Notes: generated from the sequence alone by a model not told the origin. A DNA stretch of 64,000 nucleotides from Ignavibacteria bacterium (GCA_025612375.1 JAAXKN010000024.1:1-64000); one strand, 5' to 3'; counted from the stretch's first letter, positions 58,253 through 64,000 are shown. Numbers and translations are program-made.

Positions 58253-59392
58253 TTATCTTAGAAAGAAGACAATGACCACAATTGTAACCGTGCCCACGGC
58301 GGCAATCTGGCTGTAGAGCCTGTTCCATTTTTTAATTCTTCCCCATACTATGGCAGAAAGAACCATTAGTCCCGCAAGGGCAATTGAGGCCAGGATGCAC
58401 TGTATAAAATCGAACCTCTCCCCTACTATGGAATATATAGTTGTGTCGTGATAGATTTTCCTGTAGATTACCTGCAGGTGCAGCCAGTAGACCAGAAGAG
58501 ACTCGCGTCCCACTTCAAGCACAAAAGATTCCGTTGTATTCCTTGAGAGTTCATAGTACCTGAGTGATATGAGGAGCACCACAACTATACCAAGCCTGAG
58601 GAGAAAGAAAAACTGGTTAGGGACAACTTTACTGATGTAATCCAGCATATCAAGCGGAAACCAGAGCACAAACGCCCCTACAAGAATTAAGGCTATTCCC
58701 CACCTCATTGCGAGCTTAAGGAAGCGGGCTTCCTCATTGCGGTTTTTGAACATCATGTAATAATAGCTTATGAGCGAACCCGCAAGCATAAAGCCGAGCC
58801 ATGGGAAGAGTGGGAAAAGGGACCCATGCTGCTCGTTAAAATAATTTGCCAGGGGAAGAGGCATAAACTGAGTAAAATCTATTTTATAAACCAGCGGCGC
58901 AAAAATGAAGGAAATGAGCGTTATTACTGCAAGTATGGCATTATAAATAGTGTCACTTTTTATAAGGAGCCGCAGAATGAACATAAGGAGCAGTCCGAAG
59001 GCGATGCAGTGCAGTACGTCGACGCTTAAGAAAGGAAGTATTTCCTCGGGCGTAGCCTTGTGAAGCATTTTCTGGAGCGAGAGGTATGGAAGCCTGAGGG
59101 AATAGCCGACGAGCCATATTAAAACTATTCTTCCCAGCTGCCGCCAGAAATCGAACTTGTACTGCCTGAAAGCTTCGAGCTTTCTCTGGCTTGCAATTGT
59201 AAAGGCAAAGCCCGAGATAAAGAGAAACGAGGGCGCAACAAGCCCGTTAATAAAAGTAAGGTGCTTAAACCACTCCGAAGCCCTTAACTCCGGCCTGAGC
59301 ATGGCGTTAAAGATGTGGGTCTCGATCATGAATAAGAGAGCCCAGCCACGGTAAAGATCAATAAAGGCAAAACGTTTTTTTGTTGCGTCCAT
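58253..59392 (-). CDS. DUF1624 / heparan-alpha-glucosaminide N-acetyltransferase-like membrane protein
   Basis: This 379-residue polytopic protein has about ten hydrophobic segments. It begins FAFIDLYRGWALLFMIETHIFNAML, the start motif of the DUF1624/HGSNAT-catalytic family, and continues with FLFISGFAFTIASQRK. A VLHCIAFGLLLMFI and an LFPLFPWLGFMLAG block follow. Family members move acetyl groups across membranes onto sugars. It could acetylate a surface glycan, but this is inference. It is divergent from the giant gene at the right edge. Confidence 0.75.
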   Translation of the reverse strand: MDATKKRFAFIDLYRGWALLFMIETHIFNAMLRPELRASEWFKHLTFINGLVAPSFLFISGFAFTIASQRKLEAFRQYKFDFWRQLGRIVLIWLVGYSLRLPYLSLQKMLHKATPEEILPFLSVDVLHCIAFGLLLMFILRLLIKSDTIYNAILAVITLISFIFAPLVYKIDFTQFMPLPLANYFNEQHGSLFPLFPWLGFMLAGSLISYYYMMFKNRNEEARFLKLAMRWGIALILVGAFVLWFPLDMLDYISKVVPNQFFFLLRLGIVVVLLISLRYYELSRNTTESFVLEVGRESLLVYWLHLQVIYRKIYHDTTIYSIVGERFDFIQCILASIALAGLMVLSAIVWGRIKKWNRLYSQIAAVGTVTIVVIVFFLR

Positions 59393-59670: not shown

Positions 59671-62600
59671 ATGTATAACGAAACACTTAATGAATTACGC
59701 TCTGAACTTGATAACTGGAAAAAACGCCAGGAAACGGACAAAAGTTCTGCCTGCAGGGTATTATCCCTGGCCGAAGAAATACTCTCCTCTCCTGAAAAAG
59801 CCGGCATTGAAGAGGCCTTCTGGCATGAATATCTTGATATAACACGCCACCCGGTATTCTTAAAGAGCCTGGATGACAGGCCCGCGCGCTACCGCTGGGC
59901 AGATACGGCATTTAAGGCCATAGATCTGTCGGACTATAACCTGAAGAGGCTTTTCGATCAGAGGGTGGAGTTACACCCCGAAAGGATCCTTTTCAGCATA
60001 ACCGAAGACAATAAGCTTACCGAGTTCAGCTACAGGTGGGTGCAGAAAAGAGCGCGCCAGATCGCATCTGTCCTCTATGAGGCGGGCGGGGGAAGCCCGA
60101 GAGTGGCAATATTCTCTGAAAACACGCTTGAAAGCGCAAGCTGCGACATTGCATGCCTGCTTTATGACATTTTTGACGCACCATTAAATATACATTTCAG
60201 CTCGGATACGGTTGCGGATATTTTTAACAGGACCAGCATTAACATTGCCGTTACAGATTCCGAGACAAGGCTTAACCTTCTTTTAAGGGTCCGTGAAAAG
60301 CTGGGACGGAGCTTTAAGATCATTTATACGGGCTACGACAGGATAGAGCCTCAGCCTGAGGTCTATATAATGGAAAAGCTGATCTCGGAATTTGATCCTG
60401 CAAGAATTGACAGTGTGCTTTCAGGAAGGAAAAGGCTTCATCTTCACGAGGCCGCAACGGTTCTTTTTACCTCGGGAAGCACCGGCATGGCTAAAGGGGT
60501 CGTTTTTACGATGTACAATCTTATAACAAAGCGCTTCGCGAGAGCCGCGGCATTGCCTGAAGTGGGTGAAAAAGAGCTTCTGCTTTGTTATCTGCCCCTT
60601 TACCACACTTTTGGGAGATACCTCGAAATGATGGGAATGATATTCTGGGGAGGCACATATGTTTTTGCAGGCAACCCCTCGGTTGAAACGCTTCTAAGCC
60701 TCATGCAGAAAGTAAACCCCACGGGCATTATAAGCATTCCGCTCAGGCTAGTGCAGATTAGGGACAAGTTCCTGCACCAGTCGTCAAAGGCTGTTGATAA
60801 GAAGCTCTTCCGTGAGCTGACGGGCAAGAACCTGCGCTGGGGGCTTTCGGCAGCAGGGTTTCTGGATCCCAGGGTGTTTCAGTTCTTCCATGAGCACGGT
60901 GTTGAGCTCTGCTCCGGCTTCGGAATGACGGAGGCCACGGGGGGAATATGCATGACGCCCCCGGGGGAATACGTAAAAAATTCAGTCGGCATACCTTTAC
61001 CCGGCATCGAGATGCGCCTAAACACAAAAGGTGAACTGGAGATCTCCGGGCACTACGTGGCAGAATACCTTGATGACGACATTAAGGAGAAAAATGAGGG
61101 CTGGATGCCTACGGGCGACCTGTTCAAGATGGACAAGAACGGGCACTACCATATTGTTGACCGTATAAAGGATATTTATAAAAATATAAAGGGACAGACA
61201 ATTGCGCCCCGCCCCATAGAAAAACTCTTTGACAATATACCGGGCTTCAAGAGGACTTTCCTCGTGGGCGACGGGATGGCATACAACACACTTTTAATTG
61301 TACCCGACACAAACGATGCTATTTTGCAGAAGGCACTTTCCAAGAAGAAGCAGACGGATTACTTCCGCCCTATTATCGCCTCGGCAAACCGGGAGCTTGC
61401 CCCGTACGAGCGCATAGTGGACTTTTCCATTCTTGACCGCGATTTTGAAGAGCAGAGGGGTGAACTTACTTCCAAGGGAAGCATGAGGAGAAAGGCTATT
61501 GAAAACAGCTTTGCCAATGAAATAAGCAGGATGTACAAATATCCGAACGTGGACTTCAAAATTGACAGCCTTAAGGTTATAATTCCCCGCTGGGTTATAA
61601 GGGACCTGGGAATTACCGAGTACGACATGAAAAGCCAGCACGACGGGCTTTATAACAAGCTGAATGATACAAGGCTCACCATTAAATTTAACCCTAAGAC
61701 AGAAAGGGTCCAGATAGGCGACTTTGAATACATTGTTTCGGGCTCACAGGTGGATCTCGGGGTGTTCATCAGGCAGCCGATGCTTTGGGCGGGCAACATT
61801 TCGCTCATTAACTTTGCGCTATGCAAGGACGGATGGGATACGCCTTACGATGAAAAAATTTCGCCGCAGGTTTTCCTCGCCTCTTCCTTAAACAGGCTTT
61901 ACGCGGGAAAGCTTCCTGTTATAAGCAACAAAATACCGGAAGCAAAACTGAAGGAGCTGAACGACATTGTAATTAAAAGTATCTACGGGCGCGGAAGCGC
62001 GGCACTTGAGGCCGTGCAGAGCCTTGAAAGGCAGCTCCACACCGAAAGCCACAGGGTAACCTACCTCATACGGCGGAGGCTTGAATCGCTCGCCCTGCAT
62101 CCGGATTTTGAGGTCAGGAGCTACGCCTACAGGATACTGCTTTTTGACGAGCCGTGGCTGGATTACAGCAAGTACCTGCCGGCATTTATCAACTCGGGGC
62201 TTCCTTTTATAAACAAGAAAAGCATAGAGCAGATCTCGCAGGCGGATTTTGAACGCGGGCGCCTTGAGGCCTTGAGGCAGAGGCTGGAATCGTACCGTAC
62301 TACTCTGGACTGGGATTCCTCACCCATAATGATAACGCAGTTCAAAAGGATACTTGAGCTTCTTGTACATTTTGCACGCCACAACAGAAATTCATATGGG
62401 GCTGTAAGAGAGGAGCTCGTAAGCTGGATACTGCACAAGGATGAGCCGCAGCTTTCCTCTTACGCACAGGAGCTGTTCAACAAGCTTTCAGCCTGGTTTG
62501 AATCCACATTTGAACTTTCCCCTTTTGAAAGCGAGGAGGAAAACTGGAAAGAAAGAGTGGTCTTCCAGGAGGACTTTACTCCCGATGAAATTAAGAGGAT

Positions 62601-64000
62601 TGAAAAAGTAATCTTCTGTTCAACATTCCTGAAGGAATCCCTTCTTCTTATTTTTGATGAAGACAGGTTTAACCTGAAGCAGGTTGCGCATGAGGGGATC
62701 TGGATTTCAAGAATTTTGTCGCCGCATAATTCTTTCCTTTACCGTATAAGCATCAATACGATCTACGACAAGCATTACGACCTGATGCTTCTTATAAAAG
62801 ACGACATTACAAGAACCGCGGTGCGCGAGACAATCTACTGGATGATAAAGATCTCGGGGTATCCCGGGGCTTCATCCGTAATGCCGAAGTTCGGGAACTT
62901 CCGCTCATCGATGGGTGCGGCATCGCTGGCATATGTGAATGACCTTACGGTATGGGACAAGATCAGGGATTACTCCAGCGTAAGAACAACGCAGAACTCG
63001 TTTAAGAACGAGTACAGGTGGAAGGCGCTTTTTGTAAGGGCGTTTATTGCTTTTCTTAAGGCATGGCAGAACAGCGCATATGCACTTACACCGGGCTCCA
63101 TTACGCCTACAAACGTGGTTGTGCCGGAGGCGGACCTGAAGCTTAACTCGCGCATTCTTTCACTTTCAGGCTGGCAGCCTTATAAAAATACGCTTTCTAT
63201 CATTCATCCTTTTATAAAGAACTTTTACCTGCAGACAATAGGCAACTATCCCTGGAACAAGGATGCAATCAAGATAGAATGGATGTTTGATGCCGCCGTT
63301 GAAGCCTTCAGCAAAAAAAGAGCGCTGAGGTATCTGGAAAATTTGAAAAACGACATTATGAATTCCCCCACGCGCTACGATGAGTTCGACCTCAGGGGAG
63401 CAATAGACAGGTACATAGAAAAAAGGAAAACCGAGCCTTATAAGAATCTGGCTCTTTTAGGCGCAATTGAACGCTACAATGAATGGATCAGCCAGAACCG
63501 CGAATCCACCAGCGAGGCACGCGAGCAGTTTATAAGAAAGCTGTATTCACTTTACCAGCTCAACCGTTTTCCTGCAATAACGCGGTATATGTTTTATCAG
63601 AAAACATATTTTGCAAACGCGGATGAACTGGTTAAAGAAAGGTTCAGCCGCCTTATTCAGATAATGTTCGAGCAGCCGGAGGTACATGCGACAAGGCTTG
63701 TAGAGCTTTCGGAGCTTCAGGATGCGCTTACTTCCTTTGATGACCGCCAGGTCTTCAGCAAGCTTGTATTTCCTGACGTTTCAAAGAGGCTCCAGATGGA
63801 GCTTATTCCGGTGGGAGAAGATGAAAAGAAGAGTGTCATTGTAAAGACGCTGGTTTCGGACCGCAGGAATGTTGCGCACGTTGTACGGCAGGCATTGTCT
63901 CCTTTTGAAGTAGGCAACCTGAACCGCCTGTTTATACTGGATGACTACCCGGTAAACATAACATCTGAGGATCACTTCCTTATTCTTACAGACAACGAGG
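59671..64000 (+). CDS. Giant acyl-activating (AMP-binding) fusion protein, partial
   Basis: The frame is open from the ATG at 59671 through the window end, at least 1443 codons. An N-terminal unrecognised segment (about residues 1-95) precedes an adenylate-forming domain (about 95-620). Its P-loop TSGSTGMAKGV starts at residue 267, and YLPLYHTFGRY, GFGMTEATGG (GMTE 418-421), GWMPTGDLF, DRIKDIYKNIKGQTIAPRPIE (Asp497) and an LTSKG segment with Lys602 follow. This is closest to long-chain acyl-CoA synthetases. The remaining 820-plus residues are helical and largely unrecognised; one stretch (RSSMGAASLAYVNDLTVW, about residues 1079-1096) may have a kinase or PEP-synthase-like flavour, but I cannot confirm it. 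The final 60 residues could begin an acetyltransferase domain. Confidence 0.8.
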   Translation, partial: MYNETLNELRSELDNWKKRQETDKSSACRVLSLAEEILSSPEKAGIEEAFWHEYLDITRHPVFLKSLDDRPARYRWADTAFKAIDLSDYNLKRLFDQRVELHPERILFSITEDNKLTEFSYRWVQKRARQIASVLYEAGGGSPRVAIFSENTLESASCDIACLLYDIFDAPLNIHFSSDTVADIFNRTSINIAVTDSETRLNLLLRVREKLGRSFKIIYTGYDRIEPQPEVYIMEKLISEFDPARIDSVLSGRKRLHLHEAATVLFTSGSTGMAKGVVFTMYNLITKRFARAAALPEVGEKELLLCYLPLYHTFGRYLEMMGMIFWGGTYVFAGNPSVETLLSLMQKVNPTGIISIPLRLVQIRDKFLHQSSKAVDKKLFRELTGKNLRWGLSAAGFLDPRVFQFFHEHGVELCSGFGMTEATGGICMTPPGEYVKNSVGIPLPGIEMRLNTKGELEISGHYVAEYLDDDIKEKNEGWMPTGDLFKMDKNGHYHIVDRIKDIYKNIKGQTIAPRPIEKLFDNIPGFKRTFLVGDGMAYNTLLIVPDTNDAILQKALSKKKQTDYFRPIIASANRELAPYERIVDFSILDRDFEEQRGELTSKGSMRRKAIENSFANEISRMYKYPNVDFKIDSLKVIIPRWVIRDLGITEYDMKSQHDGLYNKLNDTRLTIKFNPKTERVQIGDFEYIVSGSQVDLGVFIRQPMLWAGNISLINFALCKDGWDTPYDEKISPQVFLASSLNRLYAGKLPVISNKIPEAKLKELNDIVIKSIYGRGSAALEAVQSLERQLHTESHRVTYLIRRRLESLALHPDFEVRSYAYRILLFDEPWLDYSKYLPAFINSGLPFINKKSIEQISQADFERGRLEALRQRLESYRTTLDWDSSPIMITQFKRILELLVHFARHNRNSYGAVREELVSWILHKDEPQLSSYAQELFNKLSAWFESTFELSPFESEEENWKERVVFQEDFTPDEIKRIEKVIFCSTFLKESLLLIFDEDRFNLKQVAHEGIWISRILSPHNSFLYRISINTIYDKHYDLMLLIKDDITRTAVRETIYWMIKISGYPGASSVMPKFGNFRSSMGAASLAYVNDLTVWDKIRDYSSVRTTQNSFKNEYRWKALFVRAFIAFLKAWQNSAYALTPGSITPTNVVVPEADLKLNSRILSLSGWQPYKNTLSIIHPFIKNFYLQTIGNYPWNKDAIKIEWMFDAAVEAFSKKRALRYLENLKNDIMNSPTRYDEFDLRGAIDRYIEKRKTEPYKNLALLGAIERYNEWISQNRESTSEAREQFIRKLYSLYQLNRFPAITRYMFYQKTYFANADELVKERFSRLIQIMFEQPEVHATRLVELSELQDALTSFDDRQVFSKLVFPDVSKRLQMELIPVGEDEKKSVIVKTLVSDRRNVAHVVRQALSPFEVGNLNRLFILDDYPVNITSEDHFLILTDNE

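Follow-up and report, generated by a model that had tools for sequence, protein, structure and literature searches.

In Pat, an acetyltransferase, the large part related to acyl-CoA synthetases is of the NDP-forming type. Aas is a fusion of an acyl-acyl carrier protein (ACP) synthetase with a PlsC-type acyltransferase, in which acyl activation and transfer are carried by one chain. Coupling also occurs between separate proteins: AcuA, a member of the GNAT superfamily, binds the AMP-forming synthetase AcsA, and acetylates and inactivates it at its catalytic lysine K549 (PMC11255334). Here we describe a gene at one end of a 64,000-nucleotide stretch of DNA from an Ignavibacteria bacterium (GCA_025612375.1, JAAXKN010000024.1:1-64000; hereafter the window), whose product is predicted to join an AMP-forming acyl-CoA-synthetase (ANL) domain to a C-terminal GNAT domain through a long central region. 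No description of an ANL-GNAT fusion was found in the open-access literature searched. An earlier note made from the sequence of the window alone had suggested a novel ligase; that description was not upheld, because both end domains are of known kinds; what seems to be undescribed is their combination, together with a centre that lacks a sequence family in Pfam or PDB.

Gene structure and domain architecture

The gene lies at positions 59671..64000 (+) of the window, where the first 1443 of its 1527 codons form an open reading frame (ORF) up to the edge, as the earlier note had described. The window corresponds to positions 1-64000 of a contig (G000:C24) that extends to 70,899 bp, and the stop codon, which the note had proposed to seek to the right, was found at contig positions 64252-64254. 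The gene thus extends 254 bases beyond the window, to 64254, as a single frame free of frameshifts encoding 1,527 amino acids (aa). In an independent assembly of a neighboring species (locus L041), a gene 88% identical to it (1526 codons) was found with the same domain order, the same neighbors and the same initial methionine, which backs the assigned start codon. A frameshift, a misassembly or a chance fusion of separate genes, the first two of which the note had named as fatal to its proposal, was ruled out by this locus, with its conserved gene order, and by dozens of genomes carrying the same single ORF; with an identical architecture in all of these and no supporting evidence found, the probability of an artefact can be taken as negligible.

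Based on its Pfam matches, the region comprising residues 95-623 was assigned to an AMP-forming acyl-CoA-synthetase domain, in agreement with the long-chain acyl-CoA-synthetase-like domain that had been placed at about residues 95-620. Both subdomains of the AMP-binding fold of the ANL superfamily were present, namely the large AMP-binding subdomain (residues 95-457; 59953..61041 (+); PF00501, E 6.6e-49) and the small AMP-binding_C_3 subdomain (residues 506-623; 61186..61539 (+); PF23562, E 3e-13). Conservation was evaluated in two 21-member alignments, A1 and A5, with divergence down to 26-35% identity. In both, the T, S, G, T, G and K of the A3 ATP-binding motif TSGSTGMAKG (residues 267-276; 60469..60498 (+)) and the whole A5 motif GFGMTE (residues 416-421; 60916..60933 (+)) were invariant, as were D, R, K, I, Y, K, N, G and T of the A8 hinge motif DRIKDIYKNIKGQT (residues 497-510; 61159..61200 (+)); the motif cores TSGSTG..KG (A3), GFGMTEATGG (A5), TGD (A7) and DR.KDIYKN..GQT (A8) were invariant or nearly so. 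The ANL domain was also the best-conserved part of the protein (mean pairwise identity 0.46, vs. 0.26 for the centre and 0.38 for the GNAT domain). Peptidyl carrier protein (PCP), condensation, thioesterase and reductase domains gave no Pfam match at E<=10, as the note had anticipated for partner domains of the nonribosomal peptide synthetase (NRPS) type, and membership of the NRPS or carboxylic acid reductase families, which these domains define, was therefore rejected. Among the NCBIfam matches listed, only generic acyl-CoA-ligase models were found, and the scores were far below the cut-offs for all 25 of them.

The earlier statement that all core motifs were present failed at A10, where the column of the canonical catalytic lysine was occupied by Ser or Thr in all 29 members examined, and a Lys was found two residues upstream. 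In the window protein, the equivalent loop is ELTSKGS (residues 598-604; 61462..61482 (+)), with Ser604 in the canonical column and Lys602 (61474-61476), invariant in A1 and A5, at the displaced position. The column assignment was derived from an ungapped alignment with the FadD of the same genome (GEVTPTLKLKRKVIE vs. GELTSKGSMRRKAIE) and from a 19-sequence alignment. The loop pattern in the family was ELT-x-K-x-[ST], with T-x-K-x-[ST] in 29 of 29 proteins; a regular expression matched the loop in 25 of them, while L052, L053, L145 and L146 read TPK[AHN][ST] in the alignments. Comparator sequences that aligned at the A10 column carried Lys (Arg in Pantoea), and the closest ANL paralogues had no lysine at the position of Lys602. 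Some feruloyl-CoA synthetases may have a similar T-x-K-G loop; the one annotated fcS compared had the canonical lysine. Because acetylation of the catalytic lysine of such synthetases stops adenylation (PMC4053389), its absence from the canonical position is of consequence. Either the catalytic lysine has been relocated, or the ANL domain would have a sensing role of the sort suggested for acetyltransferases of the Pat type.

As a separate observation, the Pantoea sequence with Arg at A10 is an AMP-binding protein encoded on a plasmid of Pantoea sp. Lij88 (L163:3318-5563), and its gene overlaps one annotated as 'thermostable hemolysin' (PF12261); here an acyl-activating enzyme may be paired with another protein through separate genes.

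The last ~125 residues were assigned by sequence comparison to a GNAT acyltransferase domain. Acetyltransf_1 (PF00583) matched residues 1431-1507 (E 2e-9), a C-terminal profile built from 21 relatives (A3) matched Tetrahymena GCN5 (E 1.4e-9), and Acetyltransf models also matched divergent members of the family. The window contains the start of this domain (residues 1401-1443; 63871..64000 (+)), and the remainder, including the RGRGIG motif, continues past it to residue 1527. GNAT had been listed in the note as a possible fold match, and the domain was missed there because its CoA-binding motif falls past the window edge. Within the acyl-CoA motif [RQ]-x-x-G-x-[GA], R1474 was invariant and G1477 nearly so in A1, and both were conserved in at least 90% of the sequences in A5. 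The form R-x-x-G-x-[GSA] was retained in most members, the final position being Ser in many members of families f2 and f3.

The central region (residues 624-1400; 61540..63870 (+)) could not be matched by sequence to any entry of Pfam or PDB: no credible Pfam match was obtained for any of 21 members, and no credible PDB match was obtained by profile search. The stretch without a family measures ~750 residues (about 640-1400); a large unrecognised region had thus been correctly noticed before, and its size, given as more than 800 residues, was inflated by the window edge, which hid most of the GNAT domain. By eye, residues ~1000-1170 resemble a degenerate protein kinase, with 'PGSITPTNVVV' recalling the catalytic loop. 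When residues 955-1290 were compared with Pkinase using hhalign, the score was 24.6, in register, and was exceeded by 2 of 300 column shuffles; against a 5-sequence ABC1 profile it was 26.3, in register, and was exceeded by none of 300. When the ABC1 profile was deepened to 33 sequences, the top match was out of register and within the shuffle range, and the hhalign probabilities against kinases were 1-5%, vs. 96-99% for true kinase pairs. A kinase-like fold for these residues, its weak support having been lost with the deeper profile, was not accepted as an assignment and is kept as a lead. The centre could adopt a new class of fold, possibly combining a helical solenoid with a degenerate kinase-like module, and present a specific partner to the GNAT domain. 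The whole protein would then be a single chain dedicated to acylation, whose ANL domain, its catalytic lysine relocated, would charge CoA in situ; we regard this scheme as improbable.

The ratio of non-synonymous to synonymous substitution rates (dN/dS) between the window gene and L041 was ~0.03-0.07 across residues 95-1527, indicating that every part of this span is under purifying selection. Such values, together with motifs that are invariant across deep divergence, argue against a non-enzymatic or degenerate scaffold that serves as an assembly platform and has no catalysis at either end. This explanation, which we consider very unlikely, is favored by the fact that every member has lost the A10 lysine and that two have also lost a residue of the GNAT motif. 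Preceding the ANL domain, the N-terminal leader (residues 1-94; 59671..59952 (+)) was poorly conserved (65% identity to the nearest relative, vs. 87-97% for the other parts) and gave no Pfam match above the cut-off.

Occurrence and common ancestry

A query consisting of the centre and the GNAT domain found matches in 71 of 146 related genomes. The architecture, as one ORF of about 1,510-1,610 aa, occurs in four or more families of the class. Of 395 genomes sampled evenly across the phylum, 21 were positive, all of them from the same class, and in a class-wide sample some match was detected in 34 of 294 genomes, including family f11 and the divergent f56. The conservation of the fusion across Ignavibacteria, which the earlier note had proposed to check, was thereby established for this class and its relatives, all environmental bacteria. 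The full-length homologues recovered and aligned from the search of f11 and divergent f56 were 1,513-1,553 aa long, and those of the 71 matches that were not cut by contig ends lay in single ORFs of ~1,430-1,650 codons. In a phylum search centred on genome G514, full-length members had bit scores of at least 357, vs. at most 125 for ordinary FadD-type proteins. The named relatives were metagenome-assembled genomes (MAGs) labelled Ignavibacteria bacterium or Bacteroidota bacterium. Apart from contig-end fragments, no split or stand-alone central region was seen in the 146 relatives or in the phylum and class samples. Plasmid searches gave nothing related to the centre and C-terminus (one of the queries being the C-terminal 880 residues of L149); no viral contig with a family member was detected in a full-length alignment scan, and PADLOC gave no match. 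Three PLSDB records of 4-12 Mb filed as plasmids (NZ_OL790811.1, NZ_OL790812.1 and NZ_LT559118.1) are probably mislabelled chromosomes.

Pairwise identities of the ANL, central and GNAT parts were correlated with each other (Spearman 0.83-0.90). A clade uniting f1 with genus g28, and the f56 clade, were recovered in all three domain trees, as was the split between f2/f3 and the rest (weakly for the centre), and f11 was monophyletic in two of the three. The correlated identities and common clades indicate that the three parts were already fused in a common ancestor and have not been exchanged since, having evolved as a single unit.

Proteins from g28, a genus of family f3 (L043, L044, L045 and L059), grouped with f1 and not with other f3 members in all three domain trees (placement tested with L044 and L045), which suggests horizontal transfer between these families.

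Predicted function

Taken as a whole, the protein probably makes or senses acyl-CoA and then passes the acyl group to an amine. We tentatively favor, as the leading explanation and at somewhat less than even chances, a two-step scheme in which the ANL domain activates an acyl group, with Lys602 in the role of the A10 lysine, and the GNAT domain then carries out N-acyl transfer, the centre acting as a scaffold. The ANL domain would bind ATP together with a carboxylate, probably that of a fatty acid or another hydrophobic acid, and form an acyl-adenylate and then an acyl-CoA, with Lys602 standing in for the canonical lysine in catalysis; the acyl-CoA would be handed to the C-terminal GNAT domain, which would acylate an amine, most plausibly a lysine or an amino group of a partner that the centre, with its ~750 residues, would hold in place. 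The data establish the architecture, its conservation and the displaced lysine; the catalysis of both domains, direct passage of the acyl-CoA between them, the identities of acyl group and acceptor, and the role of the centre are inferred. This reading is preferred because both end domains matched well above the Pfam cut-offs, the GNAT domain also through the GCN5 profile; because the ANL motifs and Lys602 were invariant in the 21-member alignments, with T-x-K-x-[ST] in every protein; and because the GNAT motif was mostly kept in an ancestral fusion whose centre was not seen alone except in contig-end fragments.

Several points weigh against it. The canonical A10 lysine is required for adenylation in the ANL enzymes studied, its column holds Ser or Thr throughout the family, and Lys602 would have to substitute for it. 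The GNAT motif of L144 and L145 (family f11) has another residue in place of its leading Arg (SNRGLG and TNRGLG), so the domain may be altered in this subgroup. Two AlphaFold2 runs on three close sequences gave mean pLDDT values of 39 and 45, too low for use. Finally, the citrate synthase that recurs beside the gene (see below) is by itself no pointer to an acyl group.

The absence of the canonical lysine from all 29 members would also be expected if the protein were a regulated acetyltransferase resembling Pat, a convergent, AMP-forming counterpart of Pat/PatZ, whose ANL domain senses ATP/AMP, acyl-AMP or acyl-CoA and controls a GNAT domain that acetylates lysines of metabolic enzymes. A role in regulating central metabolism would also be in keeping with the PRK09569-type citrate (Si)-synthase gene that precedes the family gene, in the same orientation, at 11 of the loci examined, all from families f2 and f3 (L047:5636-6943, with equivalents in L050, L058, L048, L054, L056, L051, L055, L052, L057 and L146). 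The gap between the genes was 81-142 bp in 5 of the 11 loci and up to 2.4 kb in others; this adjacency is suggestive of an operon and a functional link, and is not universal. No citrate synthase of that type was found in the window genome, however, and the ANL domain, the best-conserved part of the protein, has kept nearly all of its catalytic motifs and Lys602, beyond what a sensor would need. We consider a sensor role rather unlikely, and give it less credit than acyl activation followed by transfer.

The precedent of AcuA, which inactivates AcsA through its catalytic K549 (PMC11255334), raises the alternative of a self-regulating acyl-CoA synthetase, in effect a fused AcuA-AcsA, in which the GNAT domain would acylate a lysine of its own ANL domain (e.g. 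K602) and halt synthesis when acyl-CoA builds up. Here both activities would reside in one chain, and an invariant lysine occurs in the same loop; yet K602 is off the canonical position, nothing in the present data ties the GNAT domain to it, and ~750 residues of other protein would be superfluous. This possibility is regarded as doubtful, and as less likely than that of a sensor.

Genomic context

In the window genome, the neighbors of the gene differ from those at the f2 and f3 loci and encode an HGSNAT-like membrane acetyltransferase, YbjQ, NmrA and DUF4954 proteins. The first of these (window positions 58253-59392 (-)), on the opposite strand, adjoins the gene, likewise in L041 and L042. 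At many f2 loci, hpnC, hpnD and hpnE were present. Further downstream on the contig of the window, a run of N splits an acetate-CoA-ligase-like gene into two ORFs (L002:9114-11395, at ~68,100-70,400 of the contig), while its counterpart in L041 is one ORF of 710 codons.

Comparison with known systems

The N-terminal part resembles long-chain acyl-CoA synthetases of the ANL type (PF00501 plus PF23562; PRK06187-like): residues 144-622 aligned with the FadD of the same genome at 27% identity, and the A3, A5, A7 and A8 motifs are shared. It differs from them in the Ser/Thr found in place of the A10 Lys, in the Lys two residues upstream, and in the ~900 residues that follow. The C-terminal ~125 residues are like those of the GNAT superfamily (e.g. 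Tetrahymena GCN5), with the R-x-x-G-x-G/A motif in most members, and are set apart by the ANL domain and the long centre to which they are fused and which precede them in the chain. Whether the ANL domain is a catalyst or a sensor, the family would provide a natural case of an ANL domain with its catalytic lysine shifted or missing and the remainder of its site frozen, and a large conserved protein region that belongs to no known family.

Among multidomain proteins, the layout recalls that of Pat/PatZ, a large part related to acyl-CoA synthetases followed by a C-terminal GNAT domain (PMC4053389), and departs from it in the AMP-forming ANL domain and in the ~750 extra residues between the two. 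Membership of Pat/PatZ was rejected, as only AMP-binding models matched and no NDP-forming CoA-ligase model did; as a sensor, the protein would be an AMP-forming counterpart of Pat that evolved independently. With AcuA-AcsA it shares the physical coupling of an AMP-forming synthetase to a GNAT domain (PMC11255334), although those are two proteins, with no central region and with the canonical K549 present. With Aas it would have in common activation and transfer in one chain, and Aas-type NCBIfam models matched only the AMP-binding part; membership was rejected because no PlsC match was found in Pfam, the transferase being instead a GNAT domain at the opposite end. If active, the protein would combine acyl activation and N-acyl transfer in a single polypeptide, acylating lysines or small amines from free acids and not from the bulk acyl-CoA pool.

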